In this document: positions 5,683 to 62,284 of the stretch, one piece after another | How positions within the stretch are numbered: position 1 is the stretch's first letter | Layout of the letters: the number at the start of each line of letters is the position of its first letter | NCBI GenBank assembly: GCA_030770425.1 | Contig: JASJFT010000051.1 | Span: 1 to 64,000 of the forward strand | Source: Darksidea phi | Lineage: Eukaryota; Ascomycota; Dothideomycetes; Pleosporales; Lentitheciaceae | Length of the DNA stretch: 64,000 nucleotides | Reading direction: 5' to 3' | Position numbers and translations under genes: made by a program | The notes under the pieces: generated by a model | What the model was told of the DNA's origin: nothing | Database searches by the model: none | The model's input: only the letters and a program-made list of their open reading frames with translations

Positions 5683-6135
5683 GCTGTCAATAACAGTTGT
5701 AGGGAAGACACAAGGTTTTGCAATGATAGTTAAGCGTCAAGGGATCGCGTCGCTGAAAAGAGTTGCGAGCAATGAAGACGAAGGTGGATTCTAAAGAGGA
5801 ACTTCGTCACGATTTCTCAGATGTTGTTGTCGGGCTGACTATGCTAAACAGTAGGTGTTTTGTTACCACAACCGTGTGTGAAAGTACTCTATTGAAATGT
5901 CGCACAAGCCTCCCGCCCCGCGGTGAGCAAGCGCGGTTGTGCACTAACTCCGACTTCGGAAGCGCCACCTCAAACCTTAGGTGATAAGGCAACTGCCCCC
6001 ACTTGGTCTAATTTGCCTGCTGTCTCGGCGCCAACATCAGTTGGTGTTCAGCCGCTTGTTTTATTCGCGTTGCGGCCGCACTGCAGCTTCTTCCTCCACA
6101 ATAACCACATATTTGCAACACTGTCTTTACGAATC
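5683..6135. promoter_or_regulatory. Divergent intergenic promoter region
   Basis: This 453-bp spacer separates the start codons of the minus-strand Hsp70-like gene (5682) and the plus-strand gene at 6136, so both promoters must lie here or overlap. No clear TATA box or palindromic operator was found. Pyrimidine-rich tracts (about 6090-6125) precede the plus-strand start. Confidence 0.4.
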
Positions 6136-28586: not shown

Positions 28587-31374
28587 CTAAGATTCGTCTT
28601 CTTCAACTTCGTATTCCATGTCACTTGGATCTCCAGATTTCGGAAGATCGTTGTTCATGCTGCTACTAATCTCCTCTTCTGTTGGAAAGTTGTAGCGACG
28701 CTCTGAAATATCTCGATGGTTCTCTTTGAAGTGTTGCTCTAGCAAGATCTTGCCAGACCGTGAGCGTCGCACACCGCATGTGTCATTGTTGGCGTTGTCG
28801 GCATCGGTATTCTCTTCCGAGGCTCCGTCTTCGTCCTCGTCCTCATTGTAGTTGGAAGGCACGGCATGCTCGATGTTGTTTGGAAGACCATTGCGATGTA
28901 GAGTTTGGGTGACCGCATTATCTTGGGCGACAGATGTGAGAAGATGCTGGTTGATGGCTTCATTAGGATAGGCTTGCTGCACAACGCGGAGAACACAGTC
29001 GTCGAGATGCTCGTAGAACTCTTGCGCGTTGGCAAAGGTTACTGAACAAGTAGAGCAAATGCTAGCCATAGATTGGGAGCCAATATATATCTTGCGGCCT
29101 GCAGGAGACTCCTTATGGCTGTTGGGAGGGTTCTGCTCGATGCCATGGATAGAGGTAAGATGCCTCTTGAAGACGTCGACGCGGTTGAACGACTTCTCGG
29201 CCGCCGAGCTAGATCTGGGACAGAAACCGCACACCATGGTGTCTTTGTAGTGCATCAGGGTGTGGCGGTTCCTATCATACTTGCGTGAAAAGCCCTTGAG
29301 GTGGTATTCGCACGTGGCAATGGGGCACTTCTCCGGTCGCTCGTTCTGATGGGTAAGCATGTGTGCCTTCAAGTCCTTGAAGACACGACCACACTCGGGA
29401 AGGGGGCAGAGGCCTTTCTCACGGGTCTCGTCGTCAATCTCGTAGCTGATTTCGCTCTTGCGGCTTGTGCCAGAATGTTGTACGTGCAGGGAGGCATCAG
29501 ACCGCCGCCTTGTGTAGATGGGATCTTTCTGGAATTGTTGAATGTCGAGATAGGTGGAAATGATATCTCTTTTAGAGTCTTCCTCATACTGCGTTCGGAG
29601 CCATTGCGAGGCTCGCTCTGGTTCATCCAACGTCCTAAGATCCTTGGATGTTGAATCATCCGGCCTTTTACGCGACTTAGCACCAAAGTCTTGCATGAGC
29701 ATCGCGGCTGCTTCCAAAGCAACCTCGTCGTCATAGTTAGCGCTGCTACCGTAGTTACTATTATTGAGCGTCCCGAAAGTTTCATGAGTTCGATCGGTGA
29801 TAGATTCGAAGTTGTTATTGGAGTTCTCATTGGTGCTGACGGGGATCTTGGGACTTCCTATCAGATTCCTCAACCTGGAAACGTCTGAATCGAGCTCTTC
29901 GTCATCAGATAGATTTTTCTCCATCTGACTCCCAAATCTACTCGGTGTATCAGTCGCGGATTCATCATCAGAATCCACACCCGAAGGTAATATCGCAAGA
30001 GCAATCTCCTCCATATGACGCGCAAGATGTAACAATAGAGCATCACGATCGCCGGTGGTATATTCGAGACAGAGAGGGCATGTTACTTCGGAGATTGCCA
30101 CGTCCATACCATGACGCTCTTCAAGATGCCTCATCATCGCGTCTCGATCTTCAAAGAAAACATCGACGACAGAACACTCTGTGAAGATACAGGCATAAGC
30201 CAAGATATCGTCGAAGATGTGCTTTCTATAAATTAATCCGTCAGCTATATCCCACGCATATCGCTGCACAGATAGGATAACTCACTTCCAAGCTTTGGTT
30301 CTCCGATAAACCACTGTCCTGTTGCATATTGCACAAGTAAAAGGGTCGCCTGACCGTGCTTGAGGGGGTAAGGGCGAGAGCCGTCTGTGACTTGCCTCCG
30401 CCCTGCTAGATATTATAGAAGGCGCGTGGATGGATTGAGCATCAGAAATAATTTCTACTATGTTCAAACCAGCCTCTGATTGTGCTGGGACAGAGGTTCC
30501 CAGTCCCGAGTCATGAAAGATAGTCTTGGCCTTCTCCATGGCTATCACCCCTAGCTCTTGATCGACAGCTTCGTGCTGGAGACGAATCATGTGATTGTAT
30601 CTTTCCCAATTTAGCTTGCCCAGATGATTTACTACCGTTCGCTCGGCTAGGGGAAATCTTTCTGCAACACTATTGATGTAGACTTGTTCCGGCAAATGCT
30701 CATCAATGTTTCCAATGGCTCGAGGCTCCTCGTTATCGAAATTTTCCGGGGCTGGAGACTCAAGGCTAGGACCCAACATAACGAGCGTATCAACCTTCAT
30801 ACGCAAAGTCCGACATAGTGTTTCTTCATCCTGCTCCACTTGGGAGGCGGTATGTTGTGATTGACCAAGGATGTGCATGGCTTGTTCTAGAGAAACGACA
30901 ATACTTGTCGAGTCCAAGACGTCTTTCTGTTGATCTTTGCTACTAAGTAAGTGGGCAGATGCTATACGAGCTCAGTAACGACACGGGTAATGACTTTTGT
31001 ATCAGAGACATACCAAAGACGATAAATTGTCCGATAGACACAAGAACCAGCAGGCAAGTATCGCGCAGCTCGTAAGAATCTTGCAGCACCTTATCAAGCT
31101 CGCCTCTTGACACACCAAGGTCAGTTCCCCAAAAGAACAATGCCGCAGAACTGGTTTCTAATGATTGGTACTGCTCTGATATGTTCGGTCGTGTTTTCAT
31201 GTCGATAAGTATAAGACCCAGGAGCTCTACAATAGAGTTGAATAGTAGCCCTATTGGGCCCGTTCCTATTCCTTCATCTTTTCGCACAATAGTGGCGGCC
31301 TGCTGCCAACGCTCGATGTCCACACCAGCATCCTCGACAGGGGAAGCCTCGCGACTAGGTTTGATGGAAGCCAT
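28587..31374 (-). CDS. C2H2 zinc-finger protein, fungal type (891 aa)
   Basis: Exons 31374-31014, 30961-30286, 30225-28587; introns of 52 and 60 nt (GTATGT..ATAG, GTGAGT..ATAG); 2676 nt in phase. The ATG at 31374 (MASIKPSREASP) is chosen because the seven codons before it begin with a non-ATG. Residues about 35-125 form a helical module (FFWGTDLGVSRGELDKVLQD) common at the N-terminus of Pezizomycotina C2H2 proteins. A Cys-x2-Cys pair (FTCAICNRTVVYRR) ends exon 2. Exon 3 carries CPLCLEY..LHLARH, CPLPECGRVFKDLKAHMLTH, CPIATCEYHLKGFSRKYDRN, CGFCPRS..FKRHLTSIHG and CSTCSVTFANAQEFYEHLDD. The tail is acidic. It is likely a nuclear regulator, but the N-terminal module also suggests a signalling scaffold; the target is unknown. 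Head-to-head with the gene at 31617. Confidence 0.85.
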
Positions 31375-31616: not shown

Positions 31617-33524
31617 ATGTCCGGTATCGAGATCGCAGGCCTGGCCTTCGGCATCGTTCCCATCGTCGTGGAAATATTGAAGACTTACAGTACAGCCAAA
31701 CGCAGGCTAGTGACTTTCTCACGACATACCGAGGTTGCAAACGACATCCTTCTACGATTCCAAGTCGCGGCAGCGAATTTCAACAATGATTGCCGTCTTC
31801 TACTCCAGGCAGTGGTATCTCAGCCTGGCGAGGTTTCGGAGATGATTAGGGACCCCAAGCACAAAGGATGGCAGGAACAAGGAAAGGACATCGAAGAACG
31901 ACTGCGAAACCTGATGCAACAAGACTATGATCTATGCCAGAACATCGCCACTCGTTTACGTAACATTCTGCGCGAAACACAAGAGAGCCTGGCCAAGCTT
32001 GAAGGCGGGCTGGAGAACTCGAAACAATCGCATCACGAATTGAAGCAGAAAATCTGGCACGCTTTCAACGTATCGCGGAAAGAGAACGAGTACATTCGAC
32101 AGCTCGATTCCTTAGACAAATGGAATAAAATGCTGAGCAAACTGCGGAAACAGAGGGGTGAGATCCAGAAACCTCGCACTGTTTCTTCATCCTGCATCAT
32201 TCGAAAAGCGCTACCAAAGAGCTACCAGCAGATTCGCGCCGCCTCGCAACAATTGGGGGAATCGCTACACGAGTCATGGTCCTGTACAAACATCTCGCAC
32301 AGCGGACATCAAGCGAAATTATCACTTGAGGCACGAAATGTCAGTGAGGATGTTCAGCTCGACATTGTCGTCGCGTGTCAAACAAAACCAAGTGAAACAA
32401 ATCGAAATATGTAGGATCATTCCGTGTCTGCTTCACTGCAATGCATATACTAACAGCATCTACAATCAAGGCCTCCGCTAGATAAACCGATTTGGTTGCA
32501 AATTCGATCGATCATCTCACTAGCAACACCAAAGGCGCCGACGTTGCCTCCTCCGATGTTCGTGGATACTTTGCGCGATTCATTCAAAGACAGAGTTGCC
32601 CAAGCCTCAGCCAAAGCTAAACCGAAAAAGTCAGCTGCGAAAAAGAGGGTACGATTTGATAACCCTGGAGATGATGGCGGAAGTGTTCAAAGGCCGAATT
32701 TGGGGAGCACGGGAATAACGAATTCCCAATCTTTTGTTATGCTCGATCTGAAGACAACGAAGAGCGTGTGCTGTCATGTGAGCAGGGTACGCTCTTCAAC
32801 GTCTTCTTGTCAAGATGGGTGTGTAGGCTACCTCGAAGTTTCGAGGGCTATGCCAGTCACGCGCTTCATCTTCTACGATGCGAGCAAGCTTGCGGCCAAA
32901 GAAGCAGACTCATTGTCCACCCCTCAAGAAGCGGCTCCCATCAACAGCCTCGTCAGACGTTTGCATGCTTTGCAACAAATCACTTTGGCACATAAATTAG
33001 CTGAGGCCGTTTTACACCACCATTCCACTCCGTGGTTACCACAAGCCTGGACCCTACAGGACATAGGTTATTTTACAAACTCAACGCAGTCCACTGCGAA
33101 TGACATATCCGACGCGCTGGATAGCCTGCATATCAATAATCGATTTCCGGATCAAGAATCTCTCGATCCGGAGACAAAGCAAGAAGTTCTCAATTGGAAG
33201 CACACTTACGGCATTCGGAATCTTACACTGGCCAAACTCGGAGTTGCATTGCTAGAGATCTGTGCTCAAGAAAACATTACTGCGCCCGGTTTATCTCAGA
33301 CTCCTCACGAGATCATCGAGGCGAGAAAGTTGCTTGACGAGAAACATTACTCGATTATGACTTTGGGCCCCCGATATCTCGAGCTCGTGCGAAAGTGTAT
33401 TCACTGTGACTTTTCTTGTGATGATGATTTGAATAGTGAAGCACTGCAAAGCGCGGTGTACACCGAGGTAGTGTGTGCTTTACAGGACATGAAAACTCGA
33501 TGGGAGAATGTTTCCAGTATTTGA
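31617..33524 (+). CDS. DUF7580-like fungal protein (615 aa)
   Basis: Exon 1 31617-32410, intron 32411-32470 (GTAGGA, perfect ACTAAC branch, CAAG), exon 2 32471-33524; 1848 nt in phase. The start MSGIEIAGLAFGIVPIVVE at ATG 31617 gives a hydrophobic N-terminal helix typical of fungal HeLo-like/DUF7580 proteins. The frame upstream has only non-ATG codons. Residues about 30-230 are helical and charged (LRNLMQQDYDLCQNIATRLR). A Lys-rich segment (AKPKKSAAKKRVRFD) is followed by a conserved C-terminal domain, including APINSLVRRLHAL, TPWLPQAWTLQDIGYF, TLAKLGVALLEIC and HYSIMTLGPRYLELVRKCI. The latter resembles a degenerate kinase-like C-lobe without catalytic residues. The biochemical role is undefined; the N-terminal resemblance to membrane-active HeLo-type domains is suggestive only. 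Confidence 0.78.
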
Positions 33525-36612: not shown

Positions 36613-37175
36613 TCACTCATTGACCGTAGTACCGGATAGCGGCCATGCGCCCTCAGAAAATTCCCGAAGCATCCGCTTCAGCAAAGCGATATGCGCTTCG
36701 TTAATCAGATTTTGCTTATACAAAATACAGTATTGAATTCCCTCGTCCCTTTCATACGCATCGACAAGAAGCGGAAACAGGGCAGTCCGTTCATCACGAA
36801 ACCACCGATAATGAACACAGACCTCGGAACCAGTCTCCTCACACGTCATATCCATGACGGCTTCTTTTCTATGGAAGGAGACCATTACGTCGAAAAGGGA
36901 TACGCGATTTTCTGATACAGTGTACTGGATCGATTGAAAGGGCATGATATGCGATAGTGACTGGTGGAGTTGATCTTGAACGTGTGAGATAAATGAAGTG
37001 CATGAGCGCAGTGTTTCGGGGGTGAGCCGGATTCGAATAGGGAGTCGATCGAGGAATAAGCCGACTAGCGACTGGGTGCCAGGGTCTGAACGGAGACTGT
37101 GGGAAGTACCGATTACGATGTTGTGGAGCCCATTGGAGCGAGGACTAGTTCCCCATCCATGGCGTATTTGATGGA
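36613..37175 (-). pseudogene. NRPS condensation-domain remnant
   Basis: A minus-strand frame of about 188 codons, open from just after a TGA near 37178 and without an initiator, reads LHNIVIGTSHSLRSDPGTQ, LVGLFLDRLPIRI, LHQSLSHIMPFQSIQ and later HIALLKRMLREFSEGA. These are the hinge, latch and C-terminal helices of a condensation domain of a nonribosomal peptide synthetase or PKS-NRPS. The catalytic HHxxxDG half, adenylation and carrier domains are absent. A different frame upstream (ATG 37316, ending 37113) may be a displaced linker. It is a truncated relic, next to other damaged metabolism genes. Confidence 0.75.
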
Positions 37176-37596
37176 GTCATGTTGTAGGCGGAGGCGGTCG
37201 TACACGTTCTCCGACCGTGGTCCGGCATATGTATCCTCCTCGGGCTTGTGTTGTAGGTGCGGAGCCGTCGTATACTCGTTGGGAAGTGCAGGGGGAGACA
37301 TTTCAGAAGTAGCCATTTTGGTAAGGAATAAGGGGGAGATCGAGGACTTATTGAATAAGGCTCGCAATTATATGGAAGCTTTTTTGCGTATGGCATGAGT
37401 TAGTGTTAGTGTTCACTGATTGGCTCGCCAGAATATGCACCGTTCGGCGCGAAATTTCTATACTTCGCCGCACTGTGCCGCACTTTACGTCACGGGTAAT
37501 CTTCCACTCGAATAAAATGCACTCAGGCACACCAACAACTCACTCTGATGCCAGCGATAGCGCGAATAGTAACTCTTCTTCTATCACTTCCAGTAC
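37176..37596. other. Spacer between NRPS remnant and methyltransferase
   Basis: 421 bp. It includes a small minus frame (37316-37113 region) that may belong to the NRPS remnant and a plus frame from ATG 37519 that stops at 37595, just before the methyltransferase ATG. No regulatory site is identified. Confidence 0.35.
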
Positions 37597-42659: not shown

Positions 42660-45600
42660 ATGGGGCTCGCCATTGGTATTGACCTCGGAACGGCCAATAC
42701 TCGCATTGCTATCCTTCGCCATGACCAATTTGAGGTATTACCCCACGAGGGTCAATCTATGATGCCTTCCTATGTCGCCTTCACGAGAACGGGCCGCCTC
42801 ATCGGGCAAGCAGCGAAAAACCAGGCTAGCGTCAATCCAAAGAACACCATCTTTGATGCACTCAGATTTGTTGGTTGCACATTTAACGATCCCTACGTAC
42901 AAGCAATGATCAAGCTGCTACCCTTTACGGTCACCCACGATGGCGCCATCGCAGAGGAGAAGCGGAAGCCCGTCTTCAAGGTCATGTACAAGGACGACCT
43001 CACGACCTTCACGCCTGTGGAGATTCTAGCCATGATCATAAAAAGAGCTAAGAAGGACGCAGAGAAATATCTTAACCACCCAATCGTCGACGCTGTTGTT
43101 ACGATACCATCTTACTTCAACTTAAGTCAACGGTTCGCAATCAAAGACGCTCTCTTGATCGCTGGAATCAACGCACTTCGGGTCAATCATGCTCCGACGG
43201 CTGCTCTGGTTGATTTGTATGCCACGCGGAAGATGCCTCCTGCGTTGCAGTACGCTCTGATATGCGATATTGGCGCTGGCTACTATGGTGTCGTTCTATC
43301 AGACTCATTTGAGGGCGTCCATGAAGTTAGGGCCGTCTGGGGTGATAACTGTTGTGTGGGGAACGACTACGACAGGCGTTTGATGAATCACATGATCAAC
43401 TCGTTCATACACGCGACGAAGAAAGAAGGCCAAGTTGACCCCACCGATGTTACCAATAATGCTCGAGCGCTACGTCGCTTACGCACAGCCTGCGAGAAGG
43501 CGAAGCATCAACTCTCCTCTGCCGAAGAGGCCATCGTAGAGATCGAACAGCTGCACGATGGCAAGGATCTAAAGGCGAGTATCACTCGGAAACAATTTGA
43601 GGGACTCATTCAAGATCTCATACGCTCTCTGTTGGAGCCAATCGAACGAGTCCTTAGGGACGCGAGGTGTGATAAGAGTCAGGTCTGTGACATCGTTCTA
43701 GTTGGCGGCTCTTCTCGGATCCCGAAAATCCAAAAAGTGATATCCGACTTCTTCAACGGCAAGGCACTTATACGATGCTTAAATCTTGAAGAAACTTCGG
43801 CCCGAGGCGCGGCCATTCTCGCGGCCATCCTTTCGGGGGACGAAACCTCGAAATCTGCGAACAATACGTTATTGGTGGACGTAGCGTCCAGATCACTGGG
43901 AATCGAAACGGCTGGTGGTGTTATGACGCCACTCATAAAACGCGGAACAGGCATCCCGAATAAGAAGAGCGAAATCGTTTCCACGTCCCAAGACAGCCAA
44001 GAGTCCTTTTTAGTGACCTTTTACGAAGGCGAGCGAGCACGAACGAAAGATAATATAGAACTAGGTCATACTCAAGTCTCTATCGCACCAGCGCCTCGAG
44101 GCGTTCCGCAGCTAGAGGTAACACTCGACATTGATGCCGATTACATCATCGAAGCGTCAGTTTTAGACAAAGCCACCGGCAAAAATTCTTCAGTGAGCTT
44201 TGACGGTTACAATGCACGCAGCTTCGATCGAATAAGCAAGGAAAAAGTAGAGCACTTGATCCTCGCTGAGGAGCAGATGGAGGCTGAGGACGGTCTTGAA
44301 GAAACGCGAATCGAAGCCAGGAACGTCACCGAAGAGCTTGCCTATAGGATCAAAGATTGGGGGAACGGGTTGCCACCGGAACGAAAATGCAACAGCGCCA
44401 TAGACCTTGAGACACTAGCAGACACCTATCTCCTCTGGCTAGATGAGAACCAGTTCGCTACGGCTCAAGAATACGAGGCCCGCACGCAGCAACTACTGGC
44501 CATGGGGCTTACGGTAGGGGAGCAGTTTGTTCACGGGGGGTCTTACTCACAGCAGAAACTAGGGCGGTCAGAAGGAACCGGAGAAGAAAGCGAAGTTGGT
44601 TCAAAATCAGATGAGTGGGAAGTGTTAGGGTTGGCGTTTGACGGTGGCACGCAAAAGAAGGAAAAGAAGGCGATGGTCGTGATCGAAGAGCCTACACTAC
44701 CACCTCCCATACCAACTCAGCACAGAAGAAATCCTATGCCTACCCCCAGCAGGCCGACAACGGATGATGGAATAAAAGCCAGTGCGATACATTCGAGACG
44801 AATAACTGTAGAGGATGTTCCGGATGACGACGAAAGAGAGATGGAGTATGTCCAACCTCTTTCAAACCAGAGGGGAGAGGAAAGAAGCGAGCGGAATGAA
44901 GAGATGAAGCAAAGATATGAGGGCGTGGATTCAGCTCCCAATGACAATATGCCGAGTGAGATCCCCGGACCCGAGCTGCAACCTGATGGGAAAGGCCGGC
45001 AGTTGAAGGCAAGACCATCGAACAGCTCGCCGAATGAGGTTGCTAGTGGACGGGATCGAATAGAGGTAGGTCTTGATGAAGCACTAGGGCATATCGATCA
45101 GGCCATGAAGCCGCCCTTATGGAGTTCAACCCCAACCGCAAAACAAGTCATGGAGAGACAAGGCCCCGCACGACCGGATACTCCTCGCACCGCTGCAAGA
45201 GGTATGGCCTCGCTGTTTGAAAAGCCAACCGAAGGGAGTCTCACATACACCGATACCGAGTTCATCCAGATCTCCATGTACCTAAAGAACACAGGTCAGC
45301 CGGACTGGAGTAAGATTCCACGACTCTACACTGTGCTTCGACTGATCAATCAACTGGATATGTTGGATGTATTTATTGAGCAAGGCATCACCGATATCTG
45401 GTTTCCATTTGCGCAATCGACTTTACCCCGTGCTCTGTCGCCATCTGCGAGCGCGAACTTCCTTAAGCATCAAGAGGCGGTGCTCTCAAAATCGTTGATG
45501 TTTGAGAAGAGCCCAGGAAGGAAGCATACGAGGTTCCTACAAGGCGAACCGCTGCCGTACGAGGTGGTTGGTAAGCTTGGAGCGGGTGCACACGGTCAGG

Positions 45601-46573
45601 TCGACAAGGTCATGAGCACAGTAAGCCACCGAGAGTATGCCCGGAAGCTGTTCCGAAGAGTGCGTGGCATGTCCAAGGATGCGATCAACAGCTTCTTGAT
45701 AGAGTTACAGGTGCTCAAAAGGGTGCGGTATTACCATTGTATTGAGCTGGTACGTCTATCGCTTAAGAACCTGACTCTCCAGATACTCATTGAATGTAGG
45801 TGCAAAGCTATACGGACCCCAAATATTTCGCCTTAATCATGTCACCTGTTGGCGACTGTAACCTTCTCGAGTACTACTCAATAGCTCTTAGCAACCCAGA
45901 TAAGAGCTCACTGCTACGAAGCTTCTTCGGCTGTCTCGCTAATGCTTTGGAATATATCCACAGCATTAAAATCCGCCACCGTGATATTAAGCCGCATAAC
46001 ATTCTCGTTAAAGGCGATCGTGTATTTCTAACCGATTTCGGTATTGCATTGGACTGGGAAGAGCTATCGAGATCAACGACGACTGCCGACTCTGGGAAAA
46101 CGTGGGTCTACGCAGCACCGGAAATTGCGAAGTTCGAGAAGCGCAATACCGCGGCCGATGTGTGGTCTCTTGGATGTGTTTTCATGGAAATGGCGACGAT
46201 TATCAAGGGCCAACCGATTACCGCCATGCGCAAGTTCTTTGAGGAAGCGAGTGGAAGTAATCGCTTCTATGCCAACATTTCTCGCCTAACTTCCTGGGCG
46301 GATAATTGCCGCCAAATCGGATCGGAGAAGGACGACGTTGTTTTCGATTGGATCTTGCTGATGTTGGAAGAGGACCCGAAGAATAGGCCTACTGCCGCGA
46401 CACTGCACCACGATATTAGTGTTGAATGTACGAGGCAGGGCGTGTCGTTCAGCGGCACGTGTTGCTTGGAGAACGTGGAATCGAGTGGAATTGAAGATGA
46501 AGATGATGAGGCATGGGATGTGGGTGGCGAAGAGTTGACCCTTGTGCCTGGCAAAGCGCCCGAGATGGCATAA
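42660..46573 (+). CDS. Hsp70-Ser/Thr protein kinase fusion (1287 aa)
   Basis: Exon 1 42660-45749, intron 45750-45799 (GTACGT..TGTAG, 50 nt), exon 2 45800-46573; phase 0. Residues 1 to about 390 are an Hsp70 ATPase domain (AIGIDLGTANTRIA, VLVGGSSRIPKIQKVI) and about 400-560 the substrate-binding domain (LGIETAGGVMTPLIKRGT), then the helical lid region. Compared with canonical Hsp70, the catalytic Lys (human K71) aligns with L68, the Glu of NEPTAA is Ala, and the GGGTFD loop is GAGYYG. ATP hydrolysis is therefore doubtful. Residues 640-890 are polar and low-complexity. Residues 890-966 are the pre-kinase segment typical of a fungal kinase family. Residues 967-1240 are a complete kinase: GKLGAGAHGQV, K996, E1015, HRDIKPHN (D1092), DFG (D1109) and APE. 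The tail is acidic. No signal peptide. It is predicted to be an active cytosolic kinase coupled to a chaperone-like sensor or scaffold; the function is inferred. Confidence 0.9.
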
Positions 46574-48620
46574 AAACCTTCACGAAACAGGGAAGGAACT
46601 AGTCACGTACAATTATTCTTATTTGCCTCCAAATCAATTCACTTAGCTTAGTACGTTCGTTCCGATTCCTTTCGATCTCTAACCGACTGATGCTCTCAGG
46701 TGCTTCAGGTCGATCGAAGTAGTAACGTGCGTCGACTGATCCTGTACGTTACTGCTTTAGTGCGGTACAGATATGCCTCTCCCTCGCTTGTTTAGGCACG
46801 TGCTTGGTTTCGAACGGCCTACGAATGGGGCGTGCCTTCTAAATAGGAACGCTATTACTGTACAAGGGAGGAGGGTTGTGCAGAGTCTAGTATGATGATT
46901 AGGCATTCATACGTTATAGGTAGTAGCTTTCTATGGGAAGGATTGATATCTGCCGTCGAACCTATTCTTCTCCCGTACCAATATACCTGTGCATACCATC
47001 TATAGCATATTTCTACGTCGTTTCCCTAACTTTTCATGAGCATCGTGAGTTCCTGCCTGAAGTTCTCGTTTATCTTAGCCCAATCTTGAATGAATTTCCC
47101 GTCCATCTTAGCCTACTGTTGAAAGATATCTATCCTCTTTACCTTCTCTTCTTCTAGCGCTTCGACCCTCGCTTCCATATCCTGTATCTTTTGTCTGGCT
47201 GTTAATAGGGATAAGTGTTCCTACCTACGTATAAGTATCCTGCTCGTTTTGCCATACCTTCGTAGAATAGCTTACCGTTTTAGAAAGTTTTCTCTTAACG
47301 TTAAGACGCCCATCGTCTGAGTCCGAATCTTTGAAGCGAACTCGGTTATTAGTAGAGCGGTCTACGTGTTTGTCGCCTTAGGATACAGGGCCTAGCTGAG
47401 ATAGCTAACCGCTATATAGATCTGCCAGCTCTACGGCTGGCTACCATAATAACAGGTAAGCGTTAGTAAAAGTACGTACATTAGTATTACTAACCTGACT
47501 TTTCCTCTCTTCTCTACCTATTTTCTCCCTAAGTGCCCTATATACTTCCTCTTTATAGAGAGTCCTGTCCTTAATAGTTACGGTGGAGTCGGTCAGACTT
47601 TATAATATTGCTAGATAGGAATGTACTAGAGCGGGTAAAGAAGTAGGAGAAGCGGACGAAGGGAGCGAAGTAAAGTAGTAGGTACGTCCTTTATCCTCCC
47701 TGCTACGACAGCTAAGAAAGCAAGCTATACTCCAACCCAACATTATAGACCTAAGTTAGACTCCGCGCCTGCCCTCCGTTTATGCTTACCCCCGGTCCGC
47801 CCTAAGTTAGCTAAGGGAGTGACCCCGCGGTAAATGTAACGAGAATGTAGGTAGCTGAATAGAAACTCGACGACGCCTCCAGCCATATTGTCTTGACTTG
47901 TAAGTAACGAGTATACGAGACCAATACCTATATAGCATCGCTAGCGCTAGCTACGCCTTCAGCTTGTAAGGGTGTTTCATACAGAGTGCCGTTACGTCTT
48001 ATATGCTTCGATCGAGCTATTACCTCCTATATACGATGAAGGGGGATATGTCGGTACGGCCGCTTAGAGATAATACCTTTATGCGGCGAAAGGGGCGTAT
48101 AACTGTAGTGATACTACTAGTTCGCCATAATCGTGGCGTATTAAGATGGCATAGTACAGCCTCTACCTGGCGGAAAAGAGCGTAGGGTATACGGTCTAAA
48201 TTGGGAAAACGGTTTCTAAGGGCCTAGTATATCGTGTGTATAACGTTATACGGACCTAGTCCCGTCAAGGAGGGTTTCTTCTAGTAATATAGGTGGTATA
48301 TAGCGTAATATAGATCCGTAAGATATCTATAAGACCTTAGAGAGGACTATTACGGGAGGATTTTATATCCCGTAATTAGGCTTGTTAATAAGCAATTTAG
48401 TTAATTTAAGTAATAGAAATTAAGTCTATTAAGTAAATAGAGCATTCTAATTAACCAGATTAACTTATTTTAATAGCTAGGGTAAATTAAATCGTAGATT
48501 AATTAATTTAGAATAAAATAAAGAAAATATATAATTTATATAGTAATATCTACGAGTTAAGATTCTAATTATATAAGCTATATGTTCTATTAATTACTGT
48601 ATTAAAGAATACTATAAACC
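46574..48620. other. Repeat-type debris without intact genes
   Basis: About 2 kb with interrupted frames. The distal part (48300-48600) is very AT-rich with TAATTAA-type words. The only protein-like trace is the minus-strand coiled-coil relic at 47010-47340. Other short frames (46933-47157, 48003-48185) show nothing. Confidence 0.45.
47010..47340 (-). pseudogene. Coiled-coil ORF remnant with nonsense codons
   Basis: One minus frame reads VLTLRENFLKR, stop, AILRRYGKTSRILIRR, stop, EHLSLLTARQKIQDMEARVE, ALEEEKVKRIDIFQQ, stop, AKMDGKFIQDWAKINENFRQ, with TAG/TAA where Gln or Trp would fit. The heptad pattern suggests a long coiled coil. It resembles tails of repeat-borne fungal proteins, but no family is recognised. 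The damage pattern agrees with RIP. Confidence 0.45.
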
Positions 48621-49227
48621 CTCTCACGGACGGTACTTGTGGCGACTTCAAGAAGATGTGTAAAGATGTGTAACGCCATCGGGCTGACGCATGCCATTAT
48701 CGACTTCAGCGCTCTGTTCATCCCCATTCCGTTGATCTGGAACCTGAAGATCTCGATAATAAAGAAATTTTGGATCTCCTTCCTGCTGCTGGCGGGAATC
48801 TTGTAAGTGTAACCCCTCCCTGTCGATGGACTCTGTACATTATTAACTTCGTTCGCTCAGTGCAAGCATTTCCTCTATACTCCGGCTTCAGTGTGTCTTC
48901 GACTTCAGTGGATTCGATCCCAACGATCCCATCAGGAGCATGTGGCTGCCTTGGGTCTACTACTTTACCGAGCTTCCCATCGCAATTATTTGCTGCTCAG
49001 CTCCTTCCATGCCTCCAGTCGTAAAACGCCTCTGGACTTCCGCATTCGGAAAATATACTAGGGCCATCACCTCTCGCGGCTTTGGTTCTTCAAAATTGAG
49101 GTTGCGGTCGAGAGAGGCTCCGGCTGGAGCCTCTCAGGCGCCGTCTGGTGGAGAAGGAAGTGACAAGGATAATCGATCTATGGAGCTTCAGACGTACCAT
49201 TTCGTTGATGGCTCCGATGCTAGGTGA
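48621..49227 (+). pseudogene. C-terminal fragment of a Pth11/rhodopsin-type membrane protein
   Basis: After LTDGTCGDFKK a 10-bp tandem duplication (AGATGTGTAA at 48654-48663 and 48664-48673) shifts the frame. Then THAIIDFSALFIPIPLIWNL, KKFWISFLLLAGI, an intron 48803-48860 (GTAAGT..CTCAG, 58 nt), ASISSILRLQCVFDFSGF and WLPWVYYFTELPIAIICCSA follow to TGA 49225-49227. The PIPLIW motif and helix spacing are those of helices 5-7 of fungal rhodopsin-domain proteins, and the Gly/Ser-rich cytoplasmic tail is also typical. The N-terminal half is absent here; a fitting fragment lies at 41331-41640. Confidence 0.75.
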
Positions 49228-49379
49228 GGGTTAAGCCGCAGAATGAATAGAGCAACGGGCTTGTGCCAGTGGAGTGAAAGGGAGTGAAATGTGAATTAGG
49301 GGAACAGTCGGTTTGTATAATGGGAAAATTCCATAGACTGAACTACCTGTACCATCTAAACGACACAATCGCGGCCCTA
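49228..49379. other. Short spacer
   Basis: 152 bp between convergent pseudogenes (plus-strand membrane protein fragment and minus-strand reductase tail). Nothing recognisable. Confidence 0.3.
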
Positions 49380-49595
49380 TTACTTCTGTGCTTCGCGGAG
49401 GACTTCACCTAAGCTCTTTTGACCCTGCAACCGACTTTGAACATGGCCAGCAACGCCAGACGCCGCCATCGCGCCTGTGTTGAATGCATTCGGCACTATC
49501 CTGGTTGTTGACATCGCGTCTCCTGCGGCAAAGCATCCCGGAACACTGGTCTCACCAAATGGAGGCTGCACCACAATACCACCCTGGGGCGTGAC

Positions 49596-49610
49596 TTCAA
49601 GCCCAAGCTG
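49596..49610. repeat. Left 15-bp target-site duplication
   Basis: TTCAAGCCCAAGCTG at 49596-49610 is repeated exactly at 55872-55886. The two copies border the AT-rich insertion and are single-copy coding sequence of the interrupted reductase gene. Confidence 0.92.
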
Positions 49611-50934
49611 GCTCACCGAACACTAACTTTTAATTTTAATAGGACCCTTAATTTTAAGGCCAAAACCTATTAGAATTACCTTCTTTTTACTAAATAATTA
49701 ATTTTAAGACCTACCCTCTATTCCTACGCGCTGTGTAGAGAAGAAATAGTAGATTTAGCGACCCCGTAGTGGCTACTACCGCTCCTAGATAGTGGTATAA
49801 GGCCTATAGAGCTAGAATCTATCTAATAGTATAACCTACGTACCTTAAAGTACTAGAGAGCTAATTATAAAGCTCTAGCGTATATTAGTAGAGGCGCGAA
49901 TAATTAGGATAATAGTAGTAAAGAGGAGGGTATAGAGGGTATTTCTATAGCTACCTCTATTACTACCTACCTTAGTATAGTACGATAAGTTTTCGAGGCC
50001 TATAAGGCTATTATAATAGTCTTAGTAAGAGCTATTAATATTTATATTAAGAGCTTTAATAGTTTAGAAGAGAAAGAGGTCGTAATTAACCTATACTAAT
50101 AGATTATTAGAATCTTTACGACTATATTAGGCTTCTTCTTAGACCCCTCCTTAAGCTACTAAATAAGTAGTAATAATAGTATATATATCTATAAAAGTTA
50201 GATAAAAATTATAATAACCTCTAAAAATTTAGAGGAAAGTAATTATACTATAGACGGTTTAGATAGTTTAAAGAGGTAAGTACTAATAAATACCTAGGCC
50301 GCCTAGGTATTCTAATAGTAACTAGAAAGAAAGGACTTAAGGATTCTTATTACTATACTAACTTATAAGTAAGCTATCTAGCTATTACTATATAAAGTAT
50401 ACTTTATAATATATAATATAATTAAATAAATAGAGATAAAGTATATTTCTAAGGTTAATTTAATTAATATAGACTAGACTATTATATTTATATATCTAAA
50501 GATCTAAAATATACTTATAAAGTAGAAAAATAAAAAGCTTATACTTAGAACTTTAAAAGAGGAATTAGTAGAGGTTTCTTAATAATAATATAACTATATA
50601 GTTCTAAGTATAGTAATTTTATACTATAATATATTTAGTATATCTTTATTTATTACTAGTAAGTAAGTAGAGGAGAAGATAGTAACTTAGATAGAGGTCT
50701 AGCTAATTAGTTATAGATTCTCCTATTATAATCTAAATATAAAAAAAGGAATAGTAATCTAAGTTATCTTATTTTTAATACTTATTAGATCTTTCTAGCT
50801 CTTTAGAACGAGTAATAAATCCTATAAGATAATTTAGAAACTAATTATTTAATAATATAATCTAGAATACTAGGACTACTATAACTTATAAAAGTATAAT
50901 AGAATTCTACTCTATAATAAGTATAATACCCTAA

Positions 50935-51035
50935 TTAAGAAATATAATAGTCCTATAGACTATAACTATATATATAGTAAGAAGTATATAAACTACTTCG
51001 GATCCTATAGATCTAGTAACTAGAAATACCTAATA
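50935..51035 (+). pseudogene. LINE ORF1 (gag) zinc-knuckle relic
   Basis: The frame reads KYNSPIDYN..YSKKYINYFGSYRSSN. Replacing TAT/AAT by their unmutated TGT/TGC-type precursors gives the paired C-x-G-P-H and CxxCGGPH-like spacing of Tad1 gag knuckles. It is identification by pattern after allowing for C-to-T/G-to-A change, so moderate only. Confidence 0.5.
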
Positions 51036-51889
51036 ATATTTAAGTAAGAGAATAGCTATACTATACGACCTATAAAGAAGAAGATAATATTAATTAAATA
51101 AGTAGATTATTATACCTTTTAATATTTATACTAGATAGTAGAATAGATAGTAGAGGAGTATCTTATATAAGCTTCTACTATAAAATAATAGACTTTAATA
51201 ATAGGAATATAGGGGGCCCTAGCTACTCTAGGTTTAATATAGAGTAACTACTCTAATAAAAGAAATAGATAAGAAGATAGTAATAAAGCTCTAATAACGA
51301 CCCTTTTAAGAACGTCTATCTAGTAAAAAAGTATTATTAAAAGAAGCTTAAATCTTAGATATTTATTAATAACTAGTATATATTCTACTAATAAGTTTAT
51401 ATAATTCTTATCCTCTAAGTAGAAGAATATAATTATATTAGAATTTAACTAATAATAGTATAATAATAATAATATTACTTCCTATAAAGGAATAAGACTA
51501 TATAGATAGGTTAGATTAATATAGATAAGAGCTTACCCTACTATATAGTAGTTCTAAAGATTACTTTTAATAACTATTTTAATATTTTATATATATAGGA
51601 ATCCTTTATTTACTAAGATACTAGAGTCTTAATATATCTAACTTTTATATACTACCCCTCTATTAATATCTAAGGTAATTTAGATAGATAGAAGGATTAA
51701 AAGATATAATAACCCTATATTATAATATATATTTAGAAAGAAGTTAGACTTTAATATATATTAAGATAATCTTTATAAGATAAAGATATACTATAGATAA
51801 ATATTAATAATATAGCGATACTTAACGTCTATAAATAGCTATAACTATTAAGAGTATTAAAGTATATTACTTATTTTATACCCCTAGTC

Positions 51890-53470
51890 TACTATATAAT
51901 AGGTAGGAATTTTAATATAAAATATAATATCTTTAAATTTAAGGTCTAAATAAGTTAAAATAGAGCTAAGCTTATATAATAGATTATAAAAAGTAGTATA
52001 GACTTTATTAGATAACTAAAGAGAATAACTTATTAAGCTAGTTATATTATTAATCTTTCTTTTTCTAATATATTCTTTATAAAGACTATAATCTACGAGA
52101 ATATTTACTATAAGTTAGACTACTATATACTAGTTACTACTATACTAGAATATAGTAAGAAGTCTCTTAAGTAGTATTACTATAAAATTAAGACTATTAA
52201 TATATATATCTTTTAGGGTCTTAAAAAGCTAGAGATATACTAAATCTTTAGTTTAAAGATAATATTCTTACTATATAAGGTAGATAACTATATTAAAGTT
52301 TTTATAGATATTTTTAATAAAGTTTTAAGAATAGCTAGTAAGTCTAACTAGGGGGTAGAGTATATAGTACTTTAGTAAATAGAGAAATATAAGACTACCT
52401 ATTAATAATATCTAGAGTTATAGTACGACTACTCGAGCTATACTATAATAGAAGAGATAAGAGCTTTTTTTATAGTAGTATATAAGATAAAATAGGACTA
52501 CTAGTAATACTAAATAGATAGAGCTAAGAATAATAGAAATTTATATAGAATTATAGACTAGTATAAACTAAAATCTATATAATAAAAAGTACCTCTTAAA
52601 TATAATAGTTATATTATAGTAGACCTAATAGAGAAAGCTAAAGTCTTATAATAAGCTATTTTAGGTCGTTTTAGTATAGAGAATAACTTAATATTATTAT
52701 TAAAAGTATAGAATAACTTAATTCTCCTTTAGAATATAAATCTAACCTTAAAGAAAGTTAAAAAAAATACTATTAATATTACTAGTACCTTTCTAAGAGT
52801 TAATAGGATTATAGTTTATCTACTTAAGATATATTAAACCTATATTTAATATTTTATCTATAATATATATAGTAAATATTTAGAATATAACTACTTCTTA
52901 AACTAATAGAAAATAGTAGAGGTCGTAATAATATCTAAAGTAGGTAAGTTAGACTATTTATTAGTTAGATTCTTCTATCTAATAATTCTACTCTTATACC
53001 TTAGTAAGGGCTTAAAGAGAATTATTATAAGATAAATAGTTTAGACTACGATATTATATAATATCCTTAGTCTATAATATAGTAATATATTACTAAAGTA
53101 GTTTACTATAGATCTAGTAGTAGTCTTTATATATAATATAGAGGTAGCTTTTATAAAAAGACGATATATTACTATAGTAATACTAGATATTCTAGAAGCT
53201 TTTAATACTCTTTTTAAAAATAGACTACTATACTATATAAAGGACTAGGGCTAGCTACTTTAGCTACTATATCTAATAAAAAGCTTTCTAACCTAGAGGT
53301 AGATATAGATTTAACTAAAACGAGTAATATTCTAATAATATATAGTAAAGTATAGGACCTCTTAAAACTTTCTATTATTATCTATACTATATATACTATA
53401 TATAGCTAAACTACTTAATTAAGATACTAGATACTATTTCGAATATATAGATAATATATATATATATAGA
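51890..53470 (+). pseudogene. LINE ORF2 endonuclease/reverse transcriptase relic
   Basis: At about 51897-51960 a frame reads IGRNFNIKYNIFKFKV, the counterpart of the GGDFNxHHxxW motif of APE-type endonucleases. At 53183-53420 another reads VILDILEAFNTLFKNRLLYY, IKD, stop, G, stop, then KSFLT, stop, R, and later NFLLLSILYILYIA. These are the reverse-transcriptase segments DVKGAFD..NRLL, GW, SFLxxR and GLPQGSPLSPxLFxLYIA after RIP. Spacing of about 1.3 kb between the two is normal for LINE ORF2. Confidence 0.75.
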
Positions 53471-55871
53471 ATAGTCTATATACTAGAGAATAGTAACTAC
53501 TAAATAGTAGTAAATATTTAATAAATATAGTAGTAAGAAGTAGATAATAGAGTTATCTTTATCTTAGAGAAATATAAGATTATTTATCTTATAAGAAAAA
53601 AAGAATTAAACTATCTAGATATTATTATAAATAAGGAGAATAGAATTACTCTTATATAATAGAACCTAGTTAAAGATAAGTAAGTAACTTTATACTAGCT
53701 TAAAGTATAGTTTAATAAGAAACTTACCTTTAAAAGATATATAGCTATATATATAGTAAAAGTATATAAAATAGTTCTATATATTTATAGTCTAATAAAG
53801 ACTATATATAGACTTCTAGCTATCTTATTATATAAGATAGTTATAATATATATTATCTTAAGACTTTTCTATAGATCTAAAGCCTAGTATAGTAGATATA
53901 CTAAGCTATCTAGAATAATAAAAGAGATACGTAGTAAGAAGATTAGTACTTATTTAAACTAGTACGTTATATTAGTAGATAAGATACTAACCTTTATAAT
54001 TAAAGATATCCTTCTATTATATAGAATAATATTTATAGTTATACTTTTTAAAAATATAAATCTCTCTTTAGGGTATATAGTCCTAGAAGAGGCTAAGATT
54101 AAATTTACTATACGTATATATATAGTAGACGAAGACTACCCCTTTATCTTAAGAATAGAGATCTTAATAATATAGAGAGGTTATAGAACTAGATATCTAT
54201 AGTAATTTAAAATAAAAGTCTAGTAATTAGACTAGCTTCTATAGCTAGTACTATAACTAAAGCTTACTTATCTATACTATACCTCTAGAAGTTAAAGCGA
54301 TTTAATAGAAGAAGTAAAAAAAATAGAAGTTACTAGGGTATTTAAGATCTAATAGATAAGTTTATTAGTTATAGATATTACTCTCTTTTTAAATAGGTCT
54401 AAATAAATATAAGATAGTATAAGATATATTATATATAGATATATAATATATAAGAGAGATAAATAGTTAATAAAGAATTATAGCTCTTTTAATCTATACT
54501 TATATATCTTTAATATAAAGATAGTAGATATATAAAGAGAACTATAATATATCTTATATTTAAAGAAGAACTAGTTAAATAAAATCTAGATATATATTAA
54601 TAGTATATTAGTAATCTAGTACCTATATAGTAATCTAGTACCTATATAGTAATATAGTACTATTATTATAATAGATATTTATATCTTATTAGAAGGTAAT
54701 AAAGATATTTAATATATAAGTTAAGTAGTTACCTAGATATATAGAAATAGAGGGTAATAAGAAAATAAATAGACTAGTAAATTTAGAGGTCTATAGCCCT
54801 ACCCCTCTATATAAATAGATAGTAGAATCGATAGTTACTAGCCTTTAAATAGATATAAGAATTCTATATTAGGTAGTAGAAACTAACTAGTAGAATAAAT
54901 ATATTATAAAGCTTTTATAATAGTATAAATAGTAATAACTACCTTATAAATCTTTTAAATAACTAGTAGAGCTAAAGCTTATTTATTTAATATTAATAAA
55001 GCTATTAATTATTTAAATAAGTTATAGAGACTACGCGTAATATTATATAAAGTTTTACTATAATAATATAAAACTTATATACTTATATAATAAGTATAAA
55101 ATATTTAAGTATATTATATATTATAAGAAGATCTATAAATACTTTTATTTTTAGTTAAAGAGATTATAATATCTACTAAGTAACTCCTATAAGAGAATAT
55201 AGTACTTAAAGGAGCTACTAAGTACTCTAAAAAACTTTACTACTCTATTAGTACTAATATATAAGGATTATATTAGGCCTAACTATTTTTACTATCTCTT
55301 AATAGAAGTAGCTTCGTAGTAAGACTTTAAGGAGTTACTACTTCTTCTTATATTCCTTTTAGTAAATCTCTTTATCCCGCTAGTATAAGTAAGCTAGTTA
55401 TTACTTTAGTTTACTAAGGGCCTATTATTTAGCTTAAGAGCTACTATTCTATTCTATATTATAATAGTACGTTATATTACTTATTTAATTTTTTATTACT
55501 TTTTTATTTTATTTTTCGTTATTATATAAAATATAAGATATATTATAAGGAGAAATAAGAGAAATAAAAAAAATAAAAGAAATAAATAAGAGACGCCCCC
55601 GAAGGGGGGTAATAAACTAAGAGGATATAAAAGTAGTCTAGATCTATATAACTTTTACTATAAGTTAGTATTAATAAAAATACCTTTAGTATCTATAAGG
55701 AGGGATACTAGGGACTAAATTACTACCTAGCGGCATCTTATAATCACGATCCGCCTTTTGCGCCTATTAGGCTGCACTTAGGCGCGTCCCCTTTTATACC
55801 CCACGGGAGGCTTATGTAGATAGGGCAAAGCCATTTCTATAGGACGTAAATCAATCTCACTCACTCACTCA

Positions 55872-59648: not shown

Positions 59649-59785
59649 ACTAGCGCTAGCACAGACCCCAAGCAGTGGCCTACCGCCACTTCCGCCAACA
59701 ACCGCACGATCCTGTGATCATCCTTGACGGAAAACAACAAAGCCCCGGCGAGGAATTTGTGCAATCAACTCGACCCTCAGTCCAG

Positions 59786-62284
59786 ATGGAAGGTTTTGAA
59801 TGGCCGCAAGCTCCTTGCAGCCGAAGCTGTCATACGTACATCCCTAACAATTGTCGACGCACAAAAGCTCCTGATCAAGAACTTTATCAGCCTCATGTGC
59901 CATCGTTCCGACTTTGCGATGTCTGCTCGCTAGTCGACTTCACGAAATTCGCCTGGCGCGGTGAGCTAAGACTTGCCGAAGCCTTCCCTGGGGCATCCAT
60001 CACGGCAAATCAGGGCTGCCTGCGGTCGAATACCGCGAAAAGAGCACGTCTAAGACCGAGGCTGGGCAGTGTAGACGAGATATTCGAAAGAGCAAGGAGT
60101 TGTGATTTGTGCAACGTGATCAAGAGGAGGCTGCAAGAAGGACAGTTTGTCAAAGCTGTCCGTATCTCGATTCAGAGCCAGGACTTCTGCCATGCAGAGC
60201 CGGAGATCAACGCGATGCCAGCAGACGATCCAGACCATGTTCATCCCGTAACCAGTCTTCCGGATGCGGGTTTCAATCGATTTTTGAGGGGATATTTCCA
60301 GCTTGACGAACGGCTGCAAGAAATCCAGCGACCAAAGACGATTACCACGAACAGACTGACGGTGATTGTGGAGCTGGAGAAGGAGGACACGTCTATCTAC
60401 TCGTTACCCGACTACGACGCAGAAATACTCGTCACCTTCCAACCGTGTTCCCCGTCACACATCCCCACGGTGGAGGACACCGTGCGTCACACCGCCGGCA
60501 CGACGGGACTCCGCTTGAGCGGCCGGCAGCTGCTCGAGTCCCGGGTGGACCTACGCCTGTTGCAGTTCTGGCTGAATCACTGCGACTCGCACCATCAGCA
60601 GCGATGCTGTACTCGCCAATGGACAACCCATCTGCCCTGGGCCAAGAACCTCCTCCTCATCGATGTTCAGGACATGTGCATCGTTCCAGCGCCCGAGAAA
60701 TGCCCATACGCCGCGCTCAGCTACGTCTGGGGACAGTGCAGCAACTACAGATCCAGAAAGGACGATTTTGCAGCAGCGCGGCAACGAGGAGCCCTGCGGC
60801 ACCGATATCTCCCAGCCACAGTGCAGGATGCAATTACCGTCACCGGGGCAATCGGCCTCCGCTACCTCTGGGTAGATGCGATCTGCATCATCCAGGACGA
60901 CGACGTCCACTTCCAATCCCAGATTTCGCAAATGGCATCCGTCTACGCCCGCGCGACCGTAACACTAATCGCCGCTGCGGGCGACGACGCTAACGCCGGG
61001 CTCGCGGGGGTCCGATCGCGTCCCAAGCCGCACCGCCCGGACATCGTCAAAGCACCAGGCGTCACGCTGATGAGCGTCGAGCCCCAGGGGAGGCAGAAGA
61101 CGGGCAAAACAGCCTACGAGCGCACACCGTACACGACCTGGTACGCGCGGGCCTGGACCATGCAGGAGCACCTCTTCGCGGCGCGGAAGCTCATCTTCGC
61201 CGACGACCAGGTGTACTGGCGCTGCGACGAGGCGCACTGGGTCGAGGAGACGGTGCTGGAGTTCGACCAGACGCGCGGCTACGACGGCTTCGTCTTCGGC
61301 AACGACACGATCAACACGTACGAGTACGACCTGACGATGCCCGAACGCCTCGATTCCCATCCATACAACCAACTGGAAAGGCTTGGCCAGCAATACCTGT
61401 CCCGCCAGCTCACCCACGAATCCGATCGTCTCAACGCCTTCATGGGCGTCCTAGGCGCGTTGACTTGCTCCACCGGAGAAAAATATGTCTGGGCTCTGCC
61501 CGAGTCGCGGTTCCCCGCGGCCCTATTCTGGCGGCTTGCGAAACAGCCTCGCACGCTGGCTTCGCACCGCAAGGTCTCGTCTGGAGGCGACACGGTGTCC
61601 GTGCCCATACCGAGCTGGAGCTGGCTCGCGTGGCGTGGGTCGAAGAAACAGAGTAGCCAACTGCATTTCGCCGGAGCCTTGGACGGAATTCTGCCCTTGG
61701 TCGACGTCTACCGGGTGGATTCGAACGGATCGCGAGTGCGGATTGGACAGTCGGCATCCGCAATGAACACCGAGCAGGGAAACTCGTGTGCTTGCGCCTA
61801 CGAGGGGGACTTCGATGAGGACCTCGACACCGGCTATCTGCAGTTCTGGGCGAATACCGCGCCGGTGTACATCCAACGCGACCACGAACAAGACTACAGT
61901 GGGACGCGGTACTATCTCCTGCGCAGCAACACCAGCAAGTACAAAACCACGCCTGCGGAATTCTGCATGGGCTCGACGGTCCACTTGGCCGGAAACGATC
62001 CCACGGTGCGCGAAAACGTGCCGCATCTGGTGAAGGTAGTGAGCCAGCGGAACAAGACCGGCTGCAAAAAGGACCTGATTCAGCTGTATTTTGTAGTGCT
62101 CGGGAGAGATGGGCCGGGCGGCTCGTGGAATCAGGCTGTTACTGATGATGGGTCGAGTGCTTTGCGGGCTTTGGTGGTGGAGAGGAAGGATGACGTTGCG
62201 TATCGGGTTGGGTTTGCGGTCATTTCGGAGAAGAATTGGTCTGCTATACCGAATAGGAACTGGGAGCTGGTTACTCTAGGTTGA
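59786..62284 (+). CDS. HET-domain heterokaryon incompatibility protein (832 aa)
   Basis: A single-exon frame. It is open from 59675, but the first in-frame ATG is 59786 (MEGFEWPQAPCSR), which I take as the start. The N-terminal part has a Cys pair typical of these proteins (SFRLCDVCSLVDFTKF, then CDLCNVIKRRL). The HET domain spans about residues 308-480: YAALSYVWGQC, RYLPATVQDAITV, YLWVDAICIIQDD, QISQMASVYARATVTLIAAA. Downstream conserved blocks are ARAWTMQEHLFAARKLIFAD, QVYWRCDEAHW and PSWSWLAWRG. HET domains are TIR-related and execute cell death after non-self recognition; the partner is unknown. GC content is higher than in its surroundings and the gene shows no RIP damage. No NACHT or WD repeats are attached. 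Confidence 0.9.
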   Translation: MEGFEWPQAPCSRSCHTYIPNNCRRTKAPDQELYQPHVPSFRLCDVCSLVDFTKFAWRGELRLAEAFPGASITANQGCLRSNTAKRARLRPRLGSVDEIFERARSCDLCNVIKRRLQEGQFVKAVRISIQSQDFCHAEPEINAMPADDPDHVHPVTSLPDAGFNRFLRGYFQLDERLQEIQRPKTITTNRLTVIVELEKEDTSIYSLPDYDAEILVTFQPCSPSHIPTVEDTVRHTAGTTGLRLSGRQLLESRVDLRLLQFWLNHCDSHHQQRCCTRQWTTHLPWAKNLLLIDVQDMCIVPAPEKCPYAALSYVWGQCSNYRSRKDDFAAARQRGALRHRYLPATVQDAITVTGAIGLRYLWVDAICIIQDDDVHFQSQISQMASVYARATVTLIAAAGDDANAGLAGVRSRPKPHRPDIVKAPGVTLMSVEPQGRQKTGKTAYERTPYTTWYARAWTMQEHLFAARKLIFADDQVYWRCDEAHWVEETVLEFDQTRGYDGFVFGNDTINTYEYDLTMPERLDSHPYNQLERLGQQYLSRQLTHESDRLNAFMGVLGALTCSTGEKYVWALPESRFPAALFWRLAKQPRTLASHRKVSSGGDTVSVPIPSWSWLAWRGSKKQSSQLHFAGALDGILPLVDVYRVDSNGSRVRIGQSASAMNTEQGNSCACAYEGDFDEDLDTGYLQFWANTAPVYIQRDHEQDYSGTRYYLLRSNTSKYKTTPAEFCMGSTVHLAGNDPTVRENVPHLVKVVSQRNKTGCKKDLIQLYFVVLGRDGPGGSWNQAVTDDGSSALRALVVERKDDVAYRVGFAVISEKNWSAIPNRNWELVTLG

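Follow-up and report, generated by a model that had tools for sequence, protein, structure and literature searches.

A fungal fusion of a degenerate Hsp70 to a protein kinase, with a candidate role in sensing

We found that one gene of the ascomycete Darksidea phi encodes a whole Hsp70 fold joined to a protein kinase, and that the fusion family to which it belongs is widespread and, as far as we searched the open-licence literature, undescribed. The gene lies in the window, by which we mean the whole stretch of 64,000 nucleotides analysed (contig JASJFT010000051.1, positions 1 to 64,000 of the forward strand). At the level of sequence, the Hsp70-kinase fusion is confirmed as real. The combination of a degenerate Hsp70 with intact kinase motifs, in several fungal classes, suggests a role in sensing and signalling, not one as a chaperone. 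Our preferred reading, to which we assign a probability of a little under one half (about 0.48), is that the Hsp70-derived part would be a non-cycling, fast-changing recognition module that gates the EXT-kinase, EXT being a conserved domain immediately before the kinase.

Gene model and domain layout

The reading frame is open from 42651, and its first ATG is at 42660. Exon 1 (42660-45749) is one uninterrupted frame of 1030 codons, holding the Hsp70, a polar linker, EXT and the kinase N-lobe; the intron that follows was predicted from the sequence and from relatives. The features are as follows, all on the + strand and with residues numbered in the encoded protein (the window protein).

42660..46573, +, whole fusion gene, 1287 aa, two exons
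42660..43814, +, Hsp70 nucleotide-binding domain (NBD), approximately residues 1-385, with the D10, T13 and D199 equivalents and the GGS.R motif kept
42861..42863, +, K71 equivalent, Leu (residue 68)
43191..43193, +, E175 equivalent, Ala (residue 178)
43281..43289, +, T204 and D206 equivalents, Tyr (residue 208) and Gly (residue 210)
43842..44204, +, substrate-binding beta domain (SBD-beta), approximately residues 395-515, from the HSPA1A alignment and a homologue model
44217..44519, +, helical lid, approximately residues 520-620, from the same alignment and model
44577..45236, +, polar linker, approximately residues 640-859, mostly unalignable except at its end
45237..45554, +, EXT, conserved domain before the kinase, predicted to be all helical, approximately residues 860-965
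45555..45749, +, kinase N-lobe in exon 1, with glycine loop, K996 and E1015
45750..45799, +, predicted intron, 50 bp, phase 0, GTACGT...TAG with internal CTGAC
45800..46573, +, kinase C-lobe and tail (exon 2), with HRD at 45977-45985, DFG at 46034-46042 and APE at 46115-46123

The Pfam HSP70 profile (PF00012) matched residues 4-622 with 491 bits over profile positions 1-596 of 599, and residues 3-612 matched human HSPA1A (7kw7_C; E = 7.5e-158); identity to fungal Hsp70s of the ordinary type is approximately 47-50%. The Pkinase profile (PF00069) scored 99.8 bits on exon 2 and 19.4 bits on the exon-1 N-lobe, the latter falling below the cut-off of 31.7 with the kinase domain divided by the intron. 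The kinase motifs are complete: GAGAHG, K996, E1015, HRD (1090-1092), DFG (1109-1111) and APE (1136-1138). At E = 10, Pfam matched neither the polar linker nor EXT, and at E = 1e-3 it matched neither NACHT nor NB-ARC anywhere in the window protein.

As the Hsp70, EXT and the start of the kinase lie in one exon, the fusion is independent of splicing. Chance is ruled out by the length of the open exon (1030 codons), by the 491 bits to HSP70 and by the finding that 64 of the 319 proteins fetched contain both parts. Alignments to 20 unspliced gene calls from relatives end between window residues 1031 and 1045, just past the last residue of exon 1 (1030); this fits an intron common to the relatives, its position in them being judged from the ends of BLAST alignments. 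The earlier note was right in describing an intact Hsp70-kinase fusion and a kinase with every catalytic motif. Its 'full-length Hsp70' holds for the fold and fails for the ATPase site, where residues are replaced, and it misplaced the Hsp70-kinase junction at 45600-45900: the junction is inside exon 1, and that region bears on the kinase intron and not on the fusion.

The note had also described a HET/C2H2/DUF7580-like setting. Pfam matched a HET-domain ORF (59660-62281, + strand, 110 bits) and a DUF7580 ORF (32454-33521, + strand, 47.8 bits), and matched nothing at 1e-3 in the two C2H2-looking ORFs (28590-30281 and 30285-30971). The HET and DUF7580 neighbourhood is weak evidence for an immune role. 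The fusion gene has a TpA/ApT ratio of 0.68 and no RIP-like shift; the DNA to its right (46574-55300) is RIP-like, with TpA/ApT of 1.41 and then 1.56, the latter in a stretch (50000-55300) of 21% GC in which (CpA+TpG)/(ApC+GpT) is 0.0. Elsewhere in the window, an ORF at 4909-5736 (- strand) carries an Hsp70/actin-like phosphate motif, IRLAIDLGTTMTAVTYQ, and looks HSPA12-like by eye only, with no Pfam match at 1e-3; a Condensation-domain ORF at 36616-37176 (- strand, 187 aa, 62 bits) matches only the last part of its profile.

Degeneration and divergence of the Hsp70 part

Few known proteins are as strongly conserved as Hsp70. We mapped ATPase residues through the HSPA1A alignment and checked five of them (K71, E175, D199, T204 and D206) in 54 fusion proteins, namely the window protein and 53 of the 120 matches listed in our family search. 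In the window protein K71 is replaced by Leu, E175 by Ala, T204 by Tyr and D206 by Gly, and D10, T13 and D199 are retained. Across the 54 fusions, K71 is retained in 20 (with two gaps), E175 in five, D199 in 46, T204 in 11 and D206 in 20, counts that misalignment in the most divergent sequences may shift for single residues. None keeps all five; zero, one, two, three and four are kept by 2, 13, 29, 9 and 1 fusions respectively, the sole protein with four being P0032. Among the matches listed in a control Hsp70 search (P0121-P0236), all five residues are present in 112 of 116; the exceptions are P0127, with four and a gap at K71, and P0121, P0122 and P0128, with one each, and these last three group with the fusions. 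Four further proteins from that search are fusions already in the set and stand outside the 116.

D10, T13 and G338 are mostly retained (49, 45 and 53 of the 54 fusions), which indicates that the nucleotide pocket is altered, not erased. K71 is present in most proteins from Sordariomycete-named sources, in P0032 from Cadophora and in P0010, and has been lost on the window's own side of the family as well as in a few other proteins; given its retention in 20 fusions, its loss belongs mainly to the window's side. Some changes recur: GTTYS becomes GTANT (positions at 78-82%), and Ala replaces the middle glycine of GGG (85%). Of the 617 Hsp70 columns examined, 52 are at least 85% conserved and identical to the canonical residue. 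Excerpts of PMC12406271 single out the DnaK residues T11 and K70 (T13 and K71 in Hsc70) as key sensors of the gamma-phosphate and report that DnaK T199A has strongly lowered ATPase activity with allostery intact; according to the title of PDB entry 1atr, T204 is not essential for ATP hydrolysis. The residues replaced in the fusions make reduced ATP hydrolysis by the Hsp70 part likely, and some family members may still hydrolyse ATP.

To compare rates we picked 26 of the 54 fusions, excluding near-copies and cut or incomplete sequences. Over the resulting 325 pairs, median identity is 0.359 for the NBD, 0.246 for SBD-beta, 0.194 for the lid, 0.513 for the EXT part and 0.549 for the kinase, and kinase identity exceeds NBD identity in 324 pairs. 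For ordinary Hsp70s (the first 60 of the 112 with all five residues) the NBD median is 0.932, in a set chosen by similarity and not species-matched to the fusions. Among the 36 fusions that reach window residue 1200, K996 and E1015 are each kept in 35 and the aspartates of HRD and DFG each in 34, with one Ala at HRD and the rest gaps; over all 54, the HRD aspartate position holds D in 34, S in two, A in one, V in one and a gap in 16. Conservation was measured on amino-acid sequences only, and the fast divergence of the Hsp70 part may reflect relaxed constraint or recognition-driven change.

The predicted structure of a homologue (P0013; 1150 aa, 48 rows; mean pLDDT 81.7, pTM 0.59) contains an NBD, a beta-sandwich and a lid, the Hsp70 part being modelled confidently and the linker with low pLDDT. 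The modelled Hsp70 part resembles ATP-state structures (TMt 0.87 to 6asy, 0.86 to 5tky and 0.87 to 5e84) more than the undocked structure 1yuw (TMt 0.62), although the state preferred by AlphaFold is not proof of the real one. A model of EXT and the N-lobe of the window protein (171 residues, pLDDT 88.8) predicts EXT as all helical, with blocks at 96-98. In a Foldseek search with this model, GRK1 and GRK2 span both parts poorly (E = 0.03-0.06, rmsd approximately 13-15), and VIA-align matches cover mostly the kinase N-lobe.

Distribution and ancestry of the fusion family

The family search used residues 885-1287 as the query, with a length filter of approximately 708-2252 aa, and the best 120 of 867 matches were taken. 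The Hsp70 part of the window protein is matched by 54 of these 121 proteins, counting the window protein itself. Three protein searches, each biased to its query and contributing its best 120 rows, yielded 319 fetched proteins, among which 104 match EXT (assessed with window residues 885-970), 252 match SSA-type Hsp70 and 64 match both; one protein (P0066) has Hsp70 and kinase and no EXT match. Relatives in which the two parts are separate genes are not the rule, and the same domain order, which the earlier note had proposed to look for, does occur in other fungi. Its view that the architecture is undescribed also stands, no description having been found by title or abstract in the open-licence literature searched; the term 'hsp70' is absent from the main text of the fungal-immunity papers searched by term.

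The sources include Kalmusia, Byssothecium, Bimuria, Paraphoma, Fusarium, Dactylonectria, Purpureocillium, Apiospora, Diaporthe and Cadophora; of the four genera whose class was looked up, Kalmusia belongs to the Dothideomycetes, Cadophora to the Leotiomycetes, and Dactylonectria and Diaporthe to the Sordariomycetes. The closest full-length named relative among the matches listed is from Kalmusia (P0001; kinase 84%, NBD 64%). Many relatives are gene calls, and among the 54 fusions many are calls cut at the kinase intron. Two species names each carry two different fusion proteins: Dactylonectria estremocensis (P0007 and P0259) and D. macrodidyma (P0019 and P0025). The three control proteins that group with the fusion Hsp70s (P0121, 707 aa; P0122, 637 aa; P0128, 769 aa) have no EXT match, and may be real losses, broken copies or the ends of gene calls. 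A plasmid search with 70 Hsp70 residues was uninformative, giving 124 records below 60% identity; both of the annotated records displayed are DnaK.

Kinase and Hsp70 trees were quick trees without bootstrap, so that the support values given here are not bootstrap values. The kinase tree comprised 80 of the 120 listed matches, the window protein and four sequences from its own genome, and 23 of its 81 inner branches were open. In this tree, 32 of the 34 Hsp70-fused sequences group together (support 99) with P0014, a member of the fusion clade in which Hsp70 is not detectable; P0010 and P0032 fall outside the main clade. Their placement raised the candidate explanation of several Hsp70 captures, which is outweighed by the higher likelihood of a tree constrained to join all fusions (p-AU = 0.832) over the free tree. 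A first Hsp70 tree joined 45 fusions and the three single proteins (support 95), with P0032 apart on weak support; with two long rows (L004 and L008) removed, all 49 fusion-type sequences lie on one side of a branch (support 98), adjoining SSA and other Hsp70s of the window's own genome. These trees neither reject nor prove that the fusion arose once, from an SSA-like Hsp70.

Other EXT-kinases among the matches listed in the family search carry different partner-domain accessions, which we take to be ankyrin (ANK), TPR, WD40, SH3, WW, LIM and PNP_UDP. In the 27 ankyrin proteins of the kinase tree the EXT-kinase begins at or before residue 210, unlike in the Hsp70 fusions, where it is C-terminal. 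Within the window's own genome we found 22 matches to PF00012 (exon pieces counted apart) and 87 to the EXT-kinase query, many of the latter being general kinases; among these matches, the two adjoin only at the window. EXT was matched in eight of ten kinase loci fetched from this genome; one (C17) has a TPR match below the cut-off, and ORFs beside the kinase hold ankyrin repeats at two (C10 and C222). A further locus (L041, G000:C208:18067-18501) encodes a 153-aa stretch with 60% identity to the C-lobe of the window kinase; the fetched 9 kb contain no match to EXT, the N-lobe or Hsp70, and the locus is possibly a broken relative.

Interpretation and comparison with known systems

A sensor or decoy role would be the interpretation best supported by the sequences. 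The sensing part would be a former cytosolic SSA-like Hsp70 set within a fungal EXT-kinase family, one that retains the fold and some of the nucleotide pocket and probably no longer runs the ATP-hydrolysis cycle. In the strongest form of this proposal it would serve as an Hsp70-like bait for foreign Hsp70-targeting proteins: binding would change the conformation of the Hsp70 part or gather copies of the fusion, EXT would relay the signal to the kinase, and the kinase would phosphorylate a downstream partner. We infer low ATPase activity and EXT gating, and the immune role and kinase target of the fusion are likewise putative. A bolder extension, which we consider somewhat improbable, is that the family represents a NOD-less class of fungal non-self receptor, in which an ATPase-degenerate Hsp70, acquired a single time by an ancestor common to several classes of Pezizomycotina, became bait that switches the kinase via EXT on attack by viral, bacterial or rival-fungus factors directed at Hsp70, with ankyrin, TPR or WD40 sensors in its place elsewhere in the family.

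The earlier note had proposed that a chaperone-derived module senses misfolded protein and controls the kinase. Control of the kinase by such a module is supported in part, and fits a kinase family that has other partners too; sensing by a working chaperone is weakened, because ATPase residues are lost family-wide and the substrate-binding part has diverged beyond the ATPase part. A sensor of proteotoxic stress, in which the Hsp70 part would still capture unfolded protein, whether or not it turns over ATP, and so release or activate the kinase, strikes us as unlikely. In its favour are the homologue model, with its three Hsp70 subdomains and ATP-state likeness, and the retention of T13 and some of the pocket, but generic peptide binding predicts conservation of the beta domain and lid, which are the least conserved folded parts (0.25 and 0.19), and the window protein has lost K71, whose DnaK counterpart is a gamma-phosphate sensor in the excerpts of PMC12406271. 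We think it very unlikely that a working chaperone presents clients to the attached kinase for phosphorylation: the 20 fusions with K71 and the four residues of P0032 would allow it, yet not one of the 54 fusions has the full set, and the window protein has L, A, Y and G at four of the five positions.

The high divergence and altered active site, together with the Hsp70-less P0014 inside the fusion clade, could also mean that the Hsp70 part has been left to drift as a remnant, or serves as a passive scaffold, and that the kinase alone matters. This seems quite unlikely to us, as the NBD, beta domain and lid are kept despite deep divergence and 52 of 617 columns stay canonical at the 85% level. 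That the fusion is an assembly or gene-model artefact is scarcely credible; although many relatives are gene calls and the window gene model is predicted, a single exon runs over the Hsp70, EXT and kinase N-lobe, and assemblies from many named genera have the same domain order, which rules out an artefact of a single annotation. A recognition module that gates the kinase is our preferred reading. A whole Hsp70 that loses catalytic residues and outpaces its own kinase in divergence is an unusual and testable receptor-like candidate.

The window protein shares the whole Hsp70 fold with cytosolic Hsp70s of the SSA type (PF00012) and differs from them in its replaced catalytic residues, its fast divergence and its fusion to an EXT-kinase. 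Animal RIPK4 and ANKK1 join a kinase to ankyrin repeats, as do some EXT-kinases, and are not known to contain Hsp70 or EXT. If the sensor reading is true, the EXT-kinase scaffold would offer a natural series of swapped partners for comparison, and fungi would have kinase-based sensors built like the wheat kinase fusion proteins. In the DNAJ-PKAc cancer fusion (PMC6533061) a chaperone-system domain is also joined to a kinase, but that domain is a J-domain recruiting Hsp70, not Hsp70 itself, and the fusion is tumour-born. Fungal NLRs likewise pair effector domains modularly with repeat partners (excerpts of PMC4986451, PMC10197012 and PMC12258605), and integrated decoys are proposed for those of Sordariales (in part of PMC12258605); the comparison is an analogy, and the window protein differs in having no NACHT or NB-ARC match. 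Integrated decoys are also proposed for kinase fusion proteins (in part of PMC10260397), and those of the Triticeae such as Sr43, Lr9 and Pm4 combine a functional kinase with a second, often non-functional domain that is the proposed decoy (excerpts of PMC10260397; also PMC10260399 and PMC12830362). These are plant proteins with other partner domains, and the likeness is one of analogy, not homology.
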